From Prosthecobacter fusiformis (GTDB lineage Bacteria > Verrucomicrobiota > Verrucomicrobiia > Verrucomicrobiales > Verrucomicrobiaceae), in assembly GCF_004364345.1 (NCBI RefSeq), contig NZ_SOCA01000002.1:137711-201710 (forward strand): 64,000 bases of DNA, in the 5' to 3' direction. How positions within the stretch are numbered: the first letter of the stretch is position 1; each line of letters opens with the position of its first letter. Made by a program: the position numbers and the translations under genes. The notes under the pieces are model-generated. The model saw only the letters and a program-made list of their open reading frames with translations. It was not told the DNA's origin and made no database searches. This document shows positions 52,901 through 63,665 of this stretch, in pieces.

Positions 52901-52928
52901 TTGACGGTTGAGAATATTCATTTAGCAT
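52901..52928 (+). promoter_or_regulatory. Candidate sigma-70 promoter of the NtrC-like gene
   Basis: TTGACG (52901-52906) and TAGCAT (52923-52928) are separated by 16 bp and lie about 40 bp upstream of the start codon in an AT-rich stretch. The -10 box matches four of six positions. The remaining 230 bp up to the divergent gene show no other clear signal. Confidence 0.3.
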
Positions 52929-52967: not shown

Positions 52968-54341
52968 ATGGCTAAACTGGTAATCATTGATGACGAGGCC
53001 GCCATCCTTGAACTGATGAGCAAGCTCTGCCGCGCGGCAGGGCATACGGTCTTTGGATGCACGACTGGCATCGATGGTATGGCAGCTATCCGCAGCCAGC
53101 AGCCAGATCTAGTGATTGTGGATTTGCGCATTGGCGATGTGAACGGATTAGACTTGGTGAGCATGTGCAAGGACCAGTTTCCTAGCACGGCCGTCATCAT
53201 GGTGACGGGTCATGGTACCGTGGAGACTGCGGTTGAGGCGATGCGCCTGGGAGCTTTCGATTACCTGACGAAACCCTTTGATCTGGGGGATCTCATCAAG
53301 ACGGTCAATCAAGCCCTGAATCGCAATAATCCGACGGCAAGCACCGTGACGCCCACTTTGAGTAGCACATCCAGCGTGCGAAGTGCAGCATCCTCAAAAT
53401 TGATCGGCCACAGCGATGCCATCCAACGCATCTTTGAGATAGTTCGCCGGGTGGCTGATAATGATAGCCCGGTGCTTTTAGAGGGGGAATTTGGCGTAGG
53501 AAAACACATGGTCGCCCGTGCGTTGCATGAAGCCAGTCGGCGCAGCTCGGCCCCATATAAAGAACTGCAATGCAGTGCCATGCCTGAAGAGGCTCTGGAA
53601 TCCGAACTTTTCGGTCATACAAATGGCCAGGGTGGCATTTTTAGCCGTGCCAGCGGCGGCACGGTCCACTTGGCGGAAGTGCATGTTCTCCCTGCGCGAA
53701 TCCAGGCCCAGCTCAATACTTTCTTGGACGAGATGCAGTCTCGCCGTAGCGCTTGGAGCAGCAACAGTGGCTCGGATTTCCGTCTCGTTGTCAGCACCAC
53801 CATCTGCCTGGAGGAGGCTTCGAAAAAAGGCATCTTCCGTGAAGACCTCTATTATAAGCTATCCGTCGTTCCTCTGAAGATTCCACCGCTGCGTGAGCGC
53901 CGGGAAGACATCAAGCCCCTCGTGGATCACTTTTTGAAGGATTTGACGGATCGTACTGATTCACGTCCCAAGACGATGGATGCTTATGCTCTGGAGTTTC
54001 TGGAGAAGTATCCGTGGCCCGGCAATATCTCTGAACTGCGCAATGCCGTGGAACGTGCCTGTGCCTTTGCAGAAAATGACCGCATTCGTCCCGCCGATCT
54101 GCCAACCAAGGTGACTCAGCAGATTGAGGTGCCCACGACTTCTGTTTCCGGTGGAACCACTCAATTGCCCATTGGCTCCACCCTGGATGACTTTATCCGT
54201 GGCCAGGAGCGCCTGTTTATCCAGGAGACCCTGAAGTATAATAATGGCTCTCGTGAAAAGACAGCCTCCATGCTTGGGGTCAGCATAGCCACGCTCTACC
54301 GCAAGATGGGGCTGAATGTGGACCGCAAGACAACCGCCTAA
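52968..54341 (+). CDS. NtrC-like response regulator lacking the sigma-54 contact loop
   Basis: 457 residues in three parts. A receiver domain (1-115) has acidic pocket Asp8/Asp9, phospho-acceptor Asp52 and Lys102. An AAA+ domain follows (about 143-385), and a Fis-type helix-turn-helix (about 408-452, REKTASMLGVSIATLYRKMG). The AAA+ part departs from sigma-54 activators: Walker A is GEFGVGKH (173-180) and the GAFTGA loop after ELFGH (213-217) is deleted. Walker B reads GGTVHLAEV with Ala236 in place of the Asp. The Arg-finger stretch is FREDLYYKL. It probably does not activate sigma-54 promoters and may act as a conventional DNA-binding regulator. No histidine kinase is adjacent. Confidence 0.9.
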   Translation: MAKLVIIDDEAAILELMSKLCRAAGHTVFGCTTGIDGMAAIRSQQPDLVIVDLRIGDVNGLDLVSMCKDQFPSTAVIMVTGHGTVETAVEAMRLGAFDYLTKPFDLGDLIKTVNQALNRNNPTASTVTPTLSSTSSVRSAASSKLIGHSDAIQRIFEIVRRVADNDSPVLLEGEFGVGKHMVARALHEASRRSSAPYKELQCSAMPEEALESELFGHTNGQGGIFSRASGGTVHLAEVHVLPARIQAQLNTFLDEMQSRRSAWSSNSGSDFRLVVSTTICLEEASKKGIFREDLYYKLSVVPLKIPPLRERREDIKPLVDHFLKDLTDRTDSRPKTMDAYALEFLEKYPWPGNISELRNAVERACAFAENDRIRPADLPTKVTQQIEVPTTSVSGGTTQLPIGSTLDDFIRGQERLFIQETLKYNNGSREKTASMLGVSIATLYRKMGLNVDRKTTA

Positions 54342-58331: not shown

Positions 58332-61040
58332 CTACCTCCTCACGCCAGGAGGCGGATTGGTGATGGCCTTTGGCGTATTGCTACGGCGGAACATGCGTGA
58401 GAAAAATCCGCCTTTGCTTTGGGCTTCCAGTTCCAGGACTTCCTTGTCATGGCTGAGGCGTGCAGTTTCTACGTCCACACTTTCAGGGAAGCGTTCAGCG
58501 GCATCGGCACCCACCTGCGTGCGGTAGTCCTCACCCAAAGAGGTGCTGCGTAACTGGGCATTGTCATGCACGACCTGAGGCTGGATGAAGATGATCAATT
58601 CGCTGCGCGTGTTGCTATCCTTCGTGTCCTTGAAGAGATTGCCGACGCCAGGGATACGGCTCAGGAATGGGACGCCGTTGGTAGCTTTATCACTCTTTTC
58701 AGAGATGAGGCCCCCCAGCACGATGGTATTGCGGTCGGGTACGGTCACTGAAGTGACGATCTGCTCCGTGCCGATGATGGGGATAAGGTTGGGCTCCACC
58801 AACTGCGTGCCGATGACGGTGTCATTGACCTGGGCGATGGTCAGTGTGACCTCACCATCCACGTTGATGAGCGGTACCACTTCCAGTTTCAGCACCACAT
58901 CGCGATACACCACAGTTGTGGTGACGTTGTTTCCATTATTGTTACCGTTGGTGTTGGTCGTGGATTCAGAGGGGACAGGAATGAGCTGCCCGGAGGTGAT
59001 GGTGGCCTTTTTATTGTTCAGTGCAAAGATGCTGGGGCGTGAGAGAACCTTGAAGCGGTTCGTGCTCTCCAGGGCGGTGACAAAGATATCCAGGCTGTCC
59101 CCAATAGCTCCATAGAGATTGAGCCCGGCCGCAGGGCCAAAGGCATTGGTGATGACGTTGTTTCGCAGGTCGCCGATGGCTCCGGCTGTGGTTGCGGTCC
59201 CCAAGATGTCCTGACGGGTGAAGATGCTGCCCGCGCTGAAATTTGTGCCGTTTCTGTTGGTCAGAGCGCTCAGATAATCCACACCAAATTCAAAACCATC
59301 ACCCAGCGTGAGCTGGCCGATGACGGTGGAAAGGTAAACCTGAGCCGGTTTGCGGTCGAGCTTGTCCAGCAGACCATTCACCTTGTCGATGGCTTCTTTG
59401 CGGCCCATCACCAGGATGGAATTCGCCATCGGATCTGCAACTACACGCGTTTTGCCGACTAAAACTGAGATGGGTGCATTGTCCTCGCTCGGCCCCTGGA
59501 TCAGGTCAGCGCGGGAGGATCCTGCGCTAGTGGCTGAGGCGGTCTCATCGGTGGAGGTGCTGCCGCTGGTGGTCAGCACCTGGCCACCACGGGTGCCTGT
59601 GGTGGTGCGCCCGGTCAGCAGCTGGCTGCTGCTGGAGGCCAGGGGCTGGGTGCGCTGTTGCTGAATGGTGCCACCACCAGGGAGCTGGACGGTGCCTCCG
59701 CTGTTTGTGTCCTGGAGCAGGTCCGTGATGGCACTGAGGACGTCCACTGCGGCTGCATATTTCAGCTTCCTCTCATAAGGCTCATCCACCTGGAGGGGCT
59801 TGTCGAATTCTGAAATCAAGCTGGCGATGTACGCATAATCAGCCGGGGAGGAGACCACCAGGATCTGATTGAGCCGGGTATCCGCCACCACTTGAGCGGA
59901 AGGCACGGGTGCCAGCATACTGACCTGTCCGTTCTGATTGTTTTGATTGTTAGCTGATTGCTGGCGTGCGGGTTCCTCTTTGCGCTCTTCCCGATTACCC
60001 CGACCATCGCTGGTGACGTTTCCGCGGATGGTATTGACACCCTTGGTCTCCTTCTCCTGGGCCTGGGCATTGAGTGTGGCCTGGATGATCTGGGCTATGG
60101 TCGCTGCTTCGGCGTATTCAATCGGGATGAATTTAGTGACGAGGGAGGAGCCTGTATCCCCCACATCAATCGCTTCGCGGATGCTGATGAGCTGCTTAAT
60201 CACGGTGCTGCTCTCCGTGAGAAGCAGACCTGGAGGCGTGAGCACCGGCGTGATGCGACCATAGACACTGAGGCCGACATGACCGGAGAACATGGCGGCC
60301 GCCTCTTCTGGATCAATGAAGTCCAGCTTCATAAAGTAGGTGACGATGGTCTCCCCATCTGGCAGGTCCAGGGCTGAGGTATAAAAGCGCACACCGTGGG
60401 AAAACTGGACCGCATTGGCGCTCTGGTTGCGCGCGGGCAGGATACGGGCGCTTTTGCCATCCGGCTCCATGACGATGGCATAACCATTGGTTAACAAGGT
60501 GGCCTCGATGAGCTTCACCGCTTCATCTTTGGTGACGGCTCTGGGCGTGGCCAGGCTGACCGCAGCACCATCGGTGAAGATGTTCGTGTCTTTGATCAGC
60601 GTGATGTTAGTCAGCAGTTCATAGATGCTGAGCATGTCCGCCACGGGGTTATTTGGAAATTGGAGGACAATCTTGTCCCCCTCCATACGGATGGTCTGGG
60701 CCAGCGTGCTCTGGATGTTTTCGCCACCAGGTCCCATGCCTCCAGGGGGACCACCCATGGTGCCGCCAAAACCCGGGCCGCCAAATCCGGGTCCACCTTC
60801 GCCACCACGGCGACGTCCTCCAAATCCACCTGGGCCGCGCCCTTCTGGGCCACCTGGTGGGCGTGCCCCGTCTGCCGGCGGGGCAGGGGCATCAGGGCTG
60901 GGCGCTGGCTCAGCGCTCGCATTATTGGGGGCTTCAGGTGGTGGTAGAGCCGCCTCATCCTGCGCACGCATGGAGCAGGGAATGAACAGGAGTGTGCTCA
61001 GTGATAGGATGTGGAGAGGGCGGAGCCGGGAAAAAAACAT
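58332..61040 (-). CDS. gspD: Type II secretion system secretin GspD
   Basis: 902 residues: a signal peptide (about 1-26), a long Gly/Pro-rich region (about 55-107, many GGPGFGG-like units), N-domains (about 115-420), a Ser/Thr/Gln-rich linker (about 460-515), and a secretin barrel. The barrel has VLSRPSIFALNNKKATI and VPDRNTIVLGGLISE, and FLSRIPGVGNLFKDT near the end. GspD forms the outer-membrane channel for folded exoproteins. The Gly/Pro-rich N-terminal segment is not a usual GspD feature. It is the last visible gene of a gspK-L-M-x-D operon. Confidence 0.93.
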   Translation of the reverse strand: MFFSRLRPLHILSLSTLLFIPCSMRAQDEAALPPPEAPNNASAEPAPSPDAPAPPADGARPPGGPEGRGPGGFGGRRRGGEGGPGFGGPGFGGTMGGPPGGMGPGGENIQSTLAQTIRMEGDKIVLQFPNNPVADMLSIYELLTNITLIKDTNIFTDGAAVSLATPRAVTKDEAVKLIEATLLTNGYAIVMEPDGKSARILPARNQSANAVQFSHGVRFYTSALDLPDGETIVTYFMKLDFIDPEEAAAMFSGHVGLSVYGRITPVLTPPGLLLTESSTVIKQLISIREAIDVGDTGSSLVTKFIPIEYAEAATIAQIIQATLNAQAQEKETKGVNTIRGNVTSDGRGNREERKEEPARQQSANNQNNQNGQVSMLAPVPSAQVVADTRLNQILVVSSPADYAYIASLISEFDKPLQVDEPYERKLKYAAAVDVLSAITDLLQDTNSGGTVQLPGGGTIQQQRTQPLASSSSQLLTGRTTTGTRGGQVLTTSGSTSTDETASATSAGSSRADLIQGPSEDNAPISVLVGKTRVVADPMANSILVMGRKEAIDKVNGLLDKLDRKPAQVYLSTVIGQLTLGDGFEFGVDYLSALTNRNGTNFSAGSIFTRQDILGTATTAGAIGDLRNNVITNAFGPAAGLNLYGAIGDSLDIFVTALESTNRFKVLSRPSIFALNNKKATITSGQLIPVPSESTTNTNGNNNGNNVTTTVVYRDVVLKLEVVPLINVDGEVTLTIAQVNDTVIGTQLVEPNLIPIIGTEQIVTSVTVPDRNTIVLGGLISEKSDKATNGVPFLSRIPGVGNLFKDTKDSNTRSELIIFIQPQVVHDNAQLRSTSLGEDYRTQVGADAAERFPESVDVETARLSHDKEVLELEAQSKGGFFSRMFRRSNTPKAITNPPPGVRR

Positions 61041-62335: not shown

Positions 62336-63550
62336 TTACTGGAGCTTTCCCTGGGCGCGGAACTGGGCAGTCTTTTCACGCACGGTAGGTTGGGGCTTGC
62401 TCCATACATATTGGCCCAGAACTTTGTGTTTTTGCAGGTCTTCCACAAACTGAACGGCGACCTGCGCGTCCCGTGCCTCACCGCGGATATCGATCTCGGT
62501 GTCTTTGACCTCGAACTCACGAATGACGATCCCACTCGGCGGCATGAGTTTAGTGACCTCGGCCAGCAGGACCATAGGGTAACGTCTTGGCTCGATGGCA
62601 GGTGCGAGCGCTTTCCATCGGTCCACCGTCTTTTTCACCTGCATGGCAGGTTCTGCCGTGGCTTCCACGGCGGCGACCAGCTCTGCTGCCGTGGCTTCCT
62701 GCATGCGCAGATAGGCGTAGGAAACAAACGCCAGGGCGATGAAAAGCAAAACGCCCAGGATGCCAAAACGCATCAATTTACTGCGCCGTGCGGTACTGTT
62801 CTGCGCCAGGCGGACGGACGTTGGCAACAGGCGCGGCCACGTGCGGGTATCCAATTCTGCATTTGGCGGCAGGTGGGGTACTAGCCTCACAGTCAGACCG
62901 GTCAGGCTGGTGAGCGTTTCCGCCGTTTCATCGTTCCATGAAGTACCTGCCAGAGCGATGCCAGAAATGCCACCGACCCCCAGATCCTGTTCCAGGGCTA
63001 AACGGGAAATCAGGATTTCCTGCGCAATCTCATCCATGGAGGCAGTGGCCGGCGCGAAAAGATGGCTGTGATAAAGCTTCCCCTGATAATTGGCAGCCAG
63101 CACCAGAGAACCATGCTCCTCAGTGATCAACACATGGCCGTTCGGCAGCGTCAGCAGACGCAGGGCAGACGTATAGTCCGAGGCCTGCGGTAGTGCCAGA
63201 TCCTGTGGAAAGGGCTCGGCCAGGATATCTACACTGACCGTCGCCACGGAGGCGTTTTGAGTGAGCAGATGCCAGCGAAAATTACGCTGATCTCCGCCCT
63301 CCAGTTTCAGGCCCTTGCGGTCCATCTGGGTGATGATGATCTGCTCCAAAATTTCATGGTCAGCATTCGGCAGCACCAAGCCCACCGTGCGGCATGCGGA
63401 AGCCGGCAGGCCAACGATCAGCGGCTTTCCCTGGCTGGAGACTGAGGCGGGCGTTTCCACAGACTCGCCACCGGTTGCACTCCTTGGTTTCCAAACACGC
63501 CAGGTGGCATCAGGGGAGGGCAAAAGGAGTGTGGTGGCTGCAAACGACAT
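62336..63550 (-). CDS. GspL-like type II secretion platform protein
   Basis: 404 residues: an N-terminal cytoplasmic actin-like part of the GspL/PilM type (about 1-260), a transmembrane helix (about 268-288, LGVLLFIALAFVSYAYL), a coiled coil and a periplasmic ferredoxin-like domain (GIVIREFEVKDTEIDIRGEA). GspL recruits the GspE ATPase to the membrane. ATG 63550 (MSFAATTLLLPSPDATWRV) is chosen; an upstream ATG at 63646 has an unlikely N-terminus. It follows gspK. Confidence 0.75.
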   Translation of the reverse strand: MSFAATTLLLPSPDATWRVWKPRSATGGESVETPASVSSQGKPLIVGLPASACRTVGLVLPNADHEILEQIIITQMDRKGLKLEGGDQRNFRWHLLTQNASVATVSVDILAEPFPQDLALPQASDYTSALRLLTLPNGHVLITEEHGSLVLAANYQGKLYHSHLFAPATASMDEIAQEILISRLALEQDLGVGGISGIALAGTSWNDETAETLTSLTGLTVRLVPHLPPNAELDTRTWPRLLPTSVRLAQNSTARRSKLMRFGILGVLLFIALAFVSYAYLRMQEATAAELVAAVEATAEPAMQVKKTVDRWKALAPAIEPRRYPMVLLAEVTKLMPPSGIVIREFEVKDTEIDIRGEARDAQVAVQFVEDLQKHKVLGQYVWSKPQPTVREKTAQFRAQGKLQ

Positions 63551-63665
63551 GCGGTATTCTTTCAACGTCGGCTTTGAGGGGAAGTTGCGGGGGAAAGTGA
63601 TCTTCCGTTGATACCGTAAAATCAGCGGTGGGACAGATGGAATCATCCCGCCACGCCCAACCTTG

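Follow-up and report, generated by a model that had tools for sequence, protein, structure and literature searches.

What can a regulator built like a sigma-54 activator do when the loop that contacts sigma-54 is missing? The question is raised by a gene of Prosthecobacter fusiformis, found in a 64,000-nucleotide stretch of DNA that was analysed as a whole and is called the window here. An earlier note, written from the DNA letters alone, reported a response regulator with phospho-receiver, AAA+ and Fis-type parts, a deleted loop and altered catalytic motifs, and suggested a remodelled, non-ATPase activator or repressor. Pfam confirms that all three parts of the NtrC-type enhancer-binding architecture are present (Response_reg at residues 5-113, Sigma54_activat at 145-303, AAA_lid_14 at 309-387, HTH_8 at 414-447), and the receiver pocket residues D8, D9, D52, T80 and K102 are all in place. 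Identity with the nitrogen regulator NtrC itself was rejected: the best NCBIfam model, TIGR01818 (ntrC), gives 318.1 bits, far under its equivalog cut-off of 558.6. From the sequence comparisons that follow, we think it quite probable that the protein is a formerly PilR-like regulator, controlled by phosphorylation and binding ATP without hydrolysing it, that has kept its operator while being cut loose from sigma-54 in favour of sigma-70. Features of the gene are collected in Table 1.

Table 1. Coordinates, within the window, of the regulator gene, its domains and motifs, and its predicted promoter elements.
Feature	Position	Strand	Evidence
Predicted -35 TTGACG, own promoter	52901..52906	+	TTGAC in 16/16 aligned upstream regions
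Tentative operator-like palindrome TTTAGCATATTTAATAAT, 15.5 bits	52921..52938	+	matrix match overlapping -10
Predicted -10 TAGCAT, 16 bp spacer	52923..52928	+	assigned by eye
CDS, GAFTGA-less response regulator, 457 aa, ATG start	52968..54341	+	ORF, Pfam, alignments
Receiver domain, aa 1-118	52968..53321	+	Pfam PF00072 at aa 5-113; pocket residues
Presumed phospho-acceptor D52 codon	53121..53123	+	D in 74/76 distinct Verrucomicrobiales sequences, 2 gapped
Degenerate AAA+ domain, aa 145-303	53400..53876	+	PF00158; alignments
Walker A GEFGVGK, aa 173-179, Lys kept	53484..53504	+	K in 73/76
L1 loop remnant, aa 217-223, GAFTGA absent	53616..53636	+	alignments
Walker B VHLAE, aa 233-237, Asp to Ala, Glu kept	53664..53678	+	alignments
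First Arg finger R291, kept	53838..53840	+	R in 76/76
Second Arg finger, now K297	53856..53858	+	K 69, R 7 of 76; canonical R 24/24
Sensor II Arg, now S355	54030..54032	+	S 54, G 20, L 1, D 1 of 76; canonical R 24/24
Fis-type DNA-binding region, aa 406-449	54183..54314	+	best conserved part of degenerate family

Where canonical orthologues read approximately ELFGHxKGAFTGAxxxxxGLFExAxxGTxFLDE, the window's protein reads ELFGHTNGQGGIFSRASGGTVHLAE, and the alignment places the loop in a deletion, as the earlier note had it. The structural names used here for AAA+ elements and residues (glutamate switch, Sensors, Arg fingers) are presumed to apply to these positions. The catalytic set of sigma-54 activators, a Walker B Asp-Glu pair, two Arg fingers and a Sensor II Arg, is represented in the window's protein by Ala-Glu, Arg plus Lys, and Ser. 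FREDLYYRL has become FREDLYYKL, with the second Arg finger replaced by Lys, and WPGNVREL has become WPGNISEL, with the Sensor II Arg replaced by Ser. The glutamate-switch Asn position is occupied by Q201, and the Sensor I stretch is STT, where canonical orthologues mostly have SN or TN. The substitution of the Walker B Asp had been read correctly (A236, followed by the conserved E237). The further statement that Walker A and the Arg finger deviate holds in part: Walker A is mildly altered (GEFGVGKH) and keeps its Lys, K179, while the change in the fingers concerns the second only and R291 is kept.

These features are those of a family. Among the 56 Verrucomicrobiales genomes searched, its own counted, 46 have an orthologue of the regulator: 33 of the 35 genomes of the genus (one as a partial match) and 13 of the 21 others of the order, where six of the eight genomes without one come from a single family (f2). 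The nearest named relative is L031 (Prosthecobacter sp., 93-94%). Not one of 74 full-length distinct Verrucomicrobiales sequences, that of the window among them, contains the pattern G[AS]F[TS][GD], as against 24 of 24 canonical orthologues, so the missing motif is no sequencing error. Close homologues keeping GAFTGA had been named in advance as evidence against the proposal; the close ones compared here all lack it, and it is a sister lineage and other classes that keep it. Residue counts were taken over 76 distinct Verrucomicrobiales sequences, including the fragments L078 and L083, the latter partly out of frame and hence the source of odd letters. The Walker B Asp position holds A in 48, E in 22, D in 3, T in 2 and S in 1; the P-loop Lys position holds K in 73, with one R, one gap and one D (the D in the fragment that is partly out of frame). 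The Walker B Glu is kept in 75 of 76, and D52 and T80 are present in all 74 sequences that are ungapped there. Throughout the degenerate family the loop, the Sensor II Arg and, by alignment, the glutamate-switch Asn are gone; the Walker B Asp and the second Arg finger are gone in most members.

Mean pairwise identity among 36 non-redundant degenerate sequences is 0.79 in the HTH region, 0.58 in the AAA domain and 0.62 in the receiver. The ratio dN/dS in the AAA domain is 0.027 against L031 and 0.028 against L032, and against L031 it is 0.021 in the receiver and 0.014 in the HTH region, figures that are rough because synonymous sites are near saturation. Given this conservation and these low ratios, the regulator is under constraint and presumably functional. 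Because the P-loop Lys and the Walker B Glu are so widely kept, ATP binding is likely to be retained. Against full loss of ATPase activity stand the 3 of 76 sequences that keep the Walker B Asp, the 22 with Glu in its place and the 7 that keep the second Arg. The family-wide loss across the order, the catalytic changes and the purifying selection together favour a remodelled, probably non-ATPase regulator that acts independently of sigma-54. The earlier proposal to this effect is strongly favoured, with the amendment that nucleotide binding has likely survived. We regard sigma-54 independence as very likely, and ATP binding without hydrolysis, with activation at sigma-70 promoters, as likely.

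Orthologues outside the order were sought by a profile search of 288 genomes of the phylum. Three sequences from other families of the same class (L134-L136) have a recognition region, GSREKxASMLGISMATLYRK, very similar to that of the degenerate family, and are intact in GAFTGA or GSFTGA, Walker A and B, Arg fingers and Sensor II. A further 21 sequences from other classes are canonical as well, and none of these 24 orthologues has lost the Walker A Lys, the glutamate-switch Asn, either residue of the Walker B Asp-Glu pair, either Arg finger or the Sensor II Arg. In a quick tree all rows without GAFTGA fall into a single clade (SH-aLRT 100) that joins L134-L136 (94), other classes lying outside (86). 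A tree from receiver and HTH columns without long-branch paralogues agrees, giving one degenerate clade (94/99), while the same columns with four long-branch paralogues included give no single degenerate clade (2 changes; 13% of bootstrap trees). By these comparisons the degenerate family appears to descend from a canonical activator and to have lost GAFTGA since, the tree with the long branches being indecisive on the point. Two members, L082 and L177, have a Lys finger but still the Walker B Asp, and in L174 neither the Asp nor the second Arg has been replaced; these two residues were therefore lost later, or more than once.

A second GAFTGA-less regulator of receiver-AAA-HTH type is encoded in the same genome outside the window (L118; G000:C14:58777-59187, minus strand). 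Its whole loop is deleted, its Walker B reads EE, its second Arg finger is Q, and its Sensor II Arg is kept. It lies on a very long branch of unsure placement and perhaps represents an independent loss of GAFTGA.

What the ancestor regulated is suggested by the gene order around canonical orthologues. Of 25 canonical loci from other classes, fetched out of a longer profile-search list, 12 have a type IV pilin gene directly downstream on the same strand, at 110-544 bp by ORF ends. Nine of these 12 regulator-to-pilin gaps contain a sequence that agrees with -24/-12 at 9 or more of 11 positions, against 4.1% of random 300-bp windows, a comparison that is approximate because the gaps are 191-628 bp long and the loci are related. 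T2SSE and T2SSF genes lie just upstream of the canonical orthologue in L165. In the sister loci L158-L160 no pilin was found; a sigma-54 gene lies about 0.6 kb downstream of the orthologue in L159 (L159:10614-12101), and L160 has an ORF that resembles it by eye. Since pilin genes behind sigma-54-like promoters follow so many canonical orthologues, we infer a PilR-like ancestor that would have activated type IV pilin genes through sigma-54. PilR is the NtrC-family activator of pilA through sigma-54, and the resemblance lies in this adjacency and in the operator that precedes a pseudopilin gene in the degenerate form (below). Unlike PilR, the degenerate regulator has lost its contact with sigma-54, and no PilS-type kinase was noticed by eye beside it in the locus gene lists. 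A same-strand pilin gene within 2 kb downstream of the regulator occurs in 0 of 68 Verrucomicrobiales loci (64 with at least 1 kb downstream), and pilin-like ORFs are near degenerate regulators in two cases only, 2.25 kb away in L044 and on the opposite strand in L067.

The link between the two forms is also visible in DNA. A de novo search of 29 degenerate-gene upstream regions returned the palindrome WTTCTCAAATTTGAGAAW with a likelihood of 152, against 31 for a shuffled control that was given fewer random starts (60 against 150), at width 18. The operator matrix was refined on 33 such regions and scanned over 826 kb from 67 Verrucomicrobiales loci, most of which, or close relatives of which, were in the training set. 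Of 53 matches of at least 14 bits, 51 are located no more than 220 bp upstream of the regulator gene, as are 66 of the 77 of at least 11 bits; of the two other matches at the higher threshold, that in L040 is 94 bp upstream of the true start of a gene whose start was wrongly called. A match of at least 11 bits stands upstream of the regulator in 59 of the 67 loci, and some of the eight loci without one are truncated. Eight of nine untrained loci (L166, L167, L169, L171, L223, L225, L226, L227 and L230) reach at least 11.7 bits, and L230 has no operator match; the held-out L224, L228 and L229, being the loci of training rows L053, L065 and L059, were left out of the nine.

Learned only from degenerate-gene promoters, the palindrome also marks the promoters of canonical orthologues and occurs upstream of sigma-54 pilin promoters in canonical loci. 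Applied unchanged to 28 canonical loci, none of them in the training set, the matrix scores 11 bits or more in the upstream windows of 18 of the 28 regulator genes (10 stay below) and in 7 of 12 regulator-to-pilin gaps. With 1000 permuted palindromic matrices the means were 0.64 upstream windows (maximum 12) and 0.56 gaps (maximum 6), and none of the 1000 did as well. Enhancers usually lie 100-150 bp before the promoter, and each of the seven gaps with an operator (L161, L165, L200, L202, L204, L205 and L218) has a site 104-168 bp before the -24 element. The -24/-12 score in these gaps is 8 in L200 and at least 9 in the other six. Further sites lie 47, 246, 277 and 322 bp before -24, and the first gaps of L163, L203, L212 and L215 have no site of at least 9.5 bits. 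Because a matrix trained on degenerate genes points to likely canonical enhancers, the case is strong that the palindrome would be the binding site of this regulator family.

At the regulator gene itself the palindrome takes two positions. Many relatives have it some 90-126 bp ahead of the start codon, immediately before TTGAC where that element can be recognised. For the window and the relatives nearest to it, the best match spans the -10 instead, and in the window it is the only one, with no good operator match upstream of the promoter. This site is to be read with care, for AT-rich -10 DNA resembles the motif and the region was in the matrix training set; it could reflect autorepression or an AT-rich coincidence. 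In L032, L033, L035, L048, L049 and L070, outward palindromes and long G+C-rich inverted repeats enclose the -35 upstream of the regulator. The arms of the repeats differ between species and stay complementary by eye; they may be an RNA element or a terminator that belongs to the preceding gene.

Candidate targets elsewhere were sought with the exact operator pattern, which has 27 matches in five Prosthecobacter-group genomes, against 4 for a reversed control; the window's genome has 8, against 1. Some of the latter lie inside ORFs (L251, L252 and L254, and also L249 as called), and L253 scores below 10 bits. Four of the 27, one in each of four genomes, fall on a contig of about 5.4-5.6 kb and were set aside as probably ribosomal RNA, the contig being small and without convincing genes. 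One match, in G243, precedes an N_methyl pseudopilin gene. This gene has clear best matches in 7 of 10 genomes searched, at 39-63% identity besides the query in G243 itself; those in G005 and G023 are just 43 and 39% identical, close to paralogues, and G010, G279 and G262 have weak matches only and hence no clear orthologue. The copy in the window's genome is at G000:C1:1207120-1207521.

An operator of 14.0 to 19.1 bits stands before all seven best-match pseudopilin genes, at a similar distance, in flanking DNA that has diverged; since the gene was first found through its operator in G243, the independent count is six of six. In 13 other pseudopilin loci, the ones among 33 further matches for which a locus was available, no site within 300 bp reaches 11 bits; L285, a related locus of this kind, has one of 11.4 bits at 534 bp upstream, beyond the distance counted. 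One of 1000 permuted matrices also gives seven of seven at 11 bits, and none reaches the mean of 16.4 bits (highest 15.6). At six of the seven promoters a TTGnnn-N16/17-TAnnnT sequence begins 56-57 bp from the operator start, and at three a second, weaker operator site lies 31-32 bp downstream of the first. As for -24/-12 elements, the best score at the seven promoters is 6 of 11, no good match.

A gene for a histidine kinase with a receiver domain (G000:C1:1163394-1165046 in the window's genome) is a further candidate, with a match 88-96 bp upstream in six of seven genomes. Its evidence is weak because conservation among five close genomes extends over all of the upstream region, and in the most distant orthologue (L293) the operator match lies elsewhere. 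Operator-like sites also occur at or near the start of an MbnP/di-haem cytochrome c peroxidase fusion gene in L258, L259 and L263, from three Prosthecobacter-group genomes, the assignment resting on Pfam matches of L259.

Put together, phosphorylation of D52 by a kinase encoded elsewhere would set the oligomeric state; the AAA+ domain would bind ATP through its P-loop without hydrolysing it and serve as an oligomerisation and regulatory module; and the Fis-type domain would bind WTTCTCAAATTTGAGAAW. From the palindrome the regulator would control its own sigma-70-type promoter and, in the Prosthecobacter group, the pseudopilin gene, which it would probably activate from positions ahead of the -35, and perhaps the histidine kinase gene as well. 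Binding by the protein, control by phosphorylation and activation rather than repression are what we infer from sequence patterns. As for how this state arose, we tentatively suggest that a PilR-type lineage may have switched sigma factor, keeping its operator and its pilin-type link while its promoters passed from -24/-12 to -35/-10 and its AAA+ domain became an ATP-binding scaffold. The PilR-like ancestry, the conserved operator and the pilin-type target go beyond the earlier note.

The alternative that survives best, though we consider it rather unlikely, is that the regulator's sole remaining role is repression, of its own gene and a few others, by blocking sigma-70 RNA polymerase without activating anything. 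In the window and near relatives the -10 lies under the best operator match, and the GAFTGA-less NtrC of Caulobacter represses sigma-70 promoters and its own locus, as described in passages of PMC10274813. Against this, the best match in many relatives is at about 90-126 bp before the start codon, upstream of TTGAC where this can be recognised, and the pseudopilin operator begins 56-57 bp before the TTG in most cases, with the weaker second site downstream of it in some. Such positions are those that we would expect of an activator.

The kind of protein is already known. The structure model of the regulator (mean pLDDT 76.5) has secondary structure in all three domains, with a pTM of 0.41 that makes their arrangement unreliable. 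Its best Foldseek match is Brucella NtrX with nucleotide (5m7n, 5m7o, 5m7p; E 3.6e-34), then NtrC1, followed by VpsR (7v2b) and FleQ. Like the regulator, Brucella NtrX has a short, non-matching loop where GAFTGA would be, and complexes with ADP and ATP have been solved; unlike it, NtrX shows, in a printed alignment, an unchanged Walker B Asp-Glu together with the second Arg finger and the Sensor II Arg. TyrR, DhaR and YplP are not known to be receiver-domain proteins. The GAFTGA of E. coli TyrR and DhaR and B. subtilis YplP is, like the regulator's, lost or damaged; TyrR and DhaR, with HupR, are listed as relatives at sigma-70 promoters and YplP is suspected, according to parts of PMC3162934. 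The NtrC proteins of R. capsulatus and Caulobacter, and VpsR, lack GAFTGA and act at sigma-70 promoters; the R. capsulatus protein needs ATP binding and not hydrolysis, Caulobacter NtrC still needs Walker A and B residues, and VpsR needs no ATP (all from passages of PMC10274813). The earlier note's mention of Rhodobacter NtrC and HupR as relatives that work without sigma-54 agrees with these sources. R. capsulatus NtrC and HupR and Caulobacter NtrC share with the regulator membership of the NtrC family of response regulators and the absence of GAFTGA, but in the regulator the Walker B Asp, second Arg finger and Sensor II have changed too; its ancestry is pilin-linked, not nitrogen-linked, and nothing here suggests orthology with them.

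VpsR, also NtrC-family without GAFTGA and of similar fold, is 24% identical over the structural alignment. It raises an improbable alternative, that the regulator is controlled by a different nucleotide bound at its AAA+ domain (c-di-GMP, as for VpsR and FleQ) and not by ATP. The place of both proteins among the Foldseek matches and the presence of Wzy_C and Glycos_transf_4 genes before the regulator in 17 and 15 of 52 loci would fit, but the P-loop Lys is kept in 73 of 76 sequences, and neither the window nor the loci of other families have these polysaccharide genes beside the regulator. The c-di-GMP residues of FleQ are not present in the regulator by eye, and no sign of c-di-GMP binding was seen in it. 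For VpsR itself, c-di-GMP binding is stated in part of PMC12564702, and action at sigma-70 promoters without GAFTGA in passages of PMC3162934 as well as PMC10274813.

Very improbable is a regulator that still activates sigma-54 through another surface with residual ATPase activity. It still has the Walker A Lys, the Walker B Glu and the first Arg finger, and in its genome sigma-54 is matched twice and six further AAA+ activators carry GAFTGA or GSFTGA (L111-L116); yet the loop, the Sensor II Arg and the glutamate-switch Asn are missing from the whole family, and the Walker B Asp and the second Arg finger from most of it, all of them features of the 24 canonical orthologues, and the operator-bearing pseudopilin promoters have no good -24/-12. 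The two sigma-54 (Sigma54_DBD) matches are at G000:C5:132502-132975 and C5:270366-270839, and the former adjoins a GSFTGA regulator at C5:133022-134419. A decaying pseudogene or an assembly error, which unusual residues in conserved motifs might suggest, has a negligible probability and was rejected, given orthologues in 46 of 56 genomes, purifying selection (AAA dN/dS about 0.03 against L031 and L032) and a conserved operator.

The reading we prefer, a sigma-54-independent regulator at sigma-70 promoters, implies that an ATP-spending sigma-54 activator gave rise to a sigma-70 regulator, a change that to our knowledge is known only from isolated cases. Both states are here orthologous, with apparently the same DNA site in front of the regulator gene and of pilin-type genes, so the transition is open to dissection by comparing orthologues. 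The operator is also a first handle on the control of surface-structure genes in Verrucomicrobiota. As far as our searches reach, four things are new here, namely the lineage itself, a loss shared by the whole family, the conservation of the operator and what appears to be a change in promoter class: no paper joining GAFTGA with Verrucomicrobia was found, and no title on this family was among the matches listed for Verrucomicrobia sigma54/PilR or Prosthecobacter response regulators. The sequence set described in a passage of PMC12316311 retains only sequences with GAFTGA.

Gene neighbourhoods were dropped as a guide to function because both recurrent arrangements are absent from the window. 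In one, genes named by eye as RNase D, Rho, CoaE and secretin are convergent neighbours of the regulator in 16-17 of 52 loci; in the other, the Wzy_C and Glycos_transf_4 (Wzy/WecA-like) genes mentioned above precede it, in some Verrucomicrobiaceae, by Pfam. The window has a secretin gene (PF00263) at 58335-61040 and a PilN-like gene (PF05137) at 62339-63646, both on the minus strand, with small genes without a Pfam match between them. This cluster, which begins about 4 kb downstream of the regulator, is of type IV pilus or type II secretion-like character.
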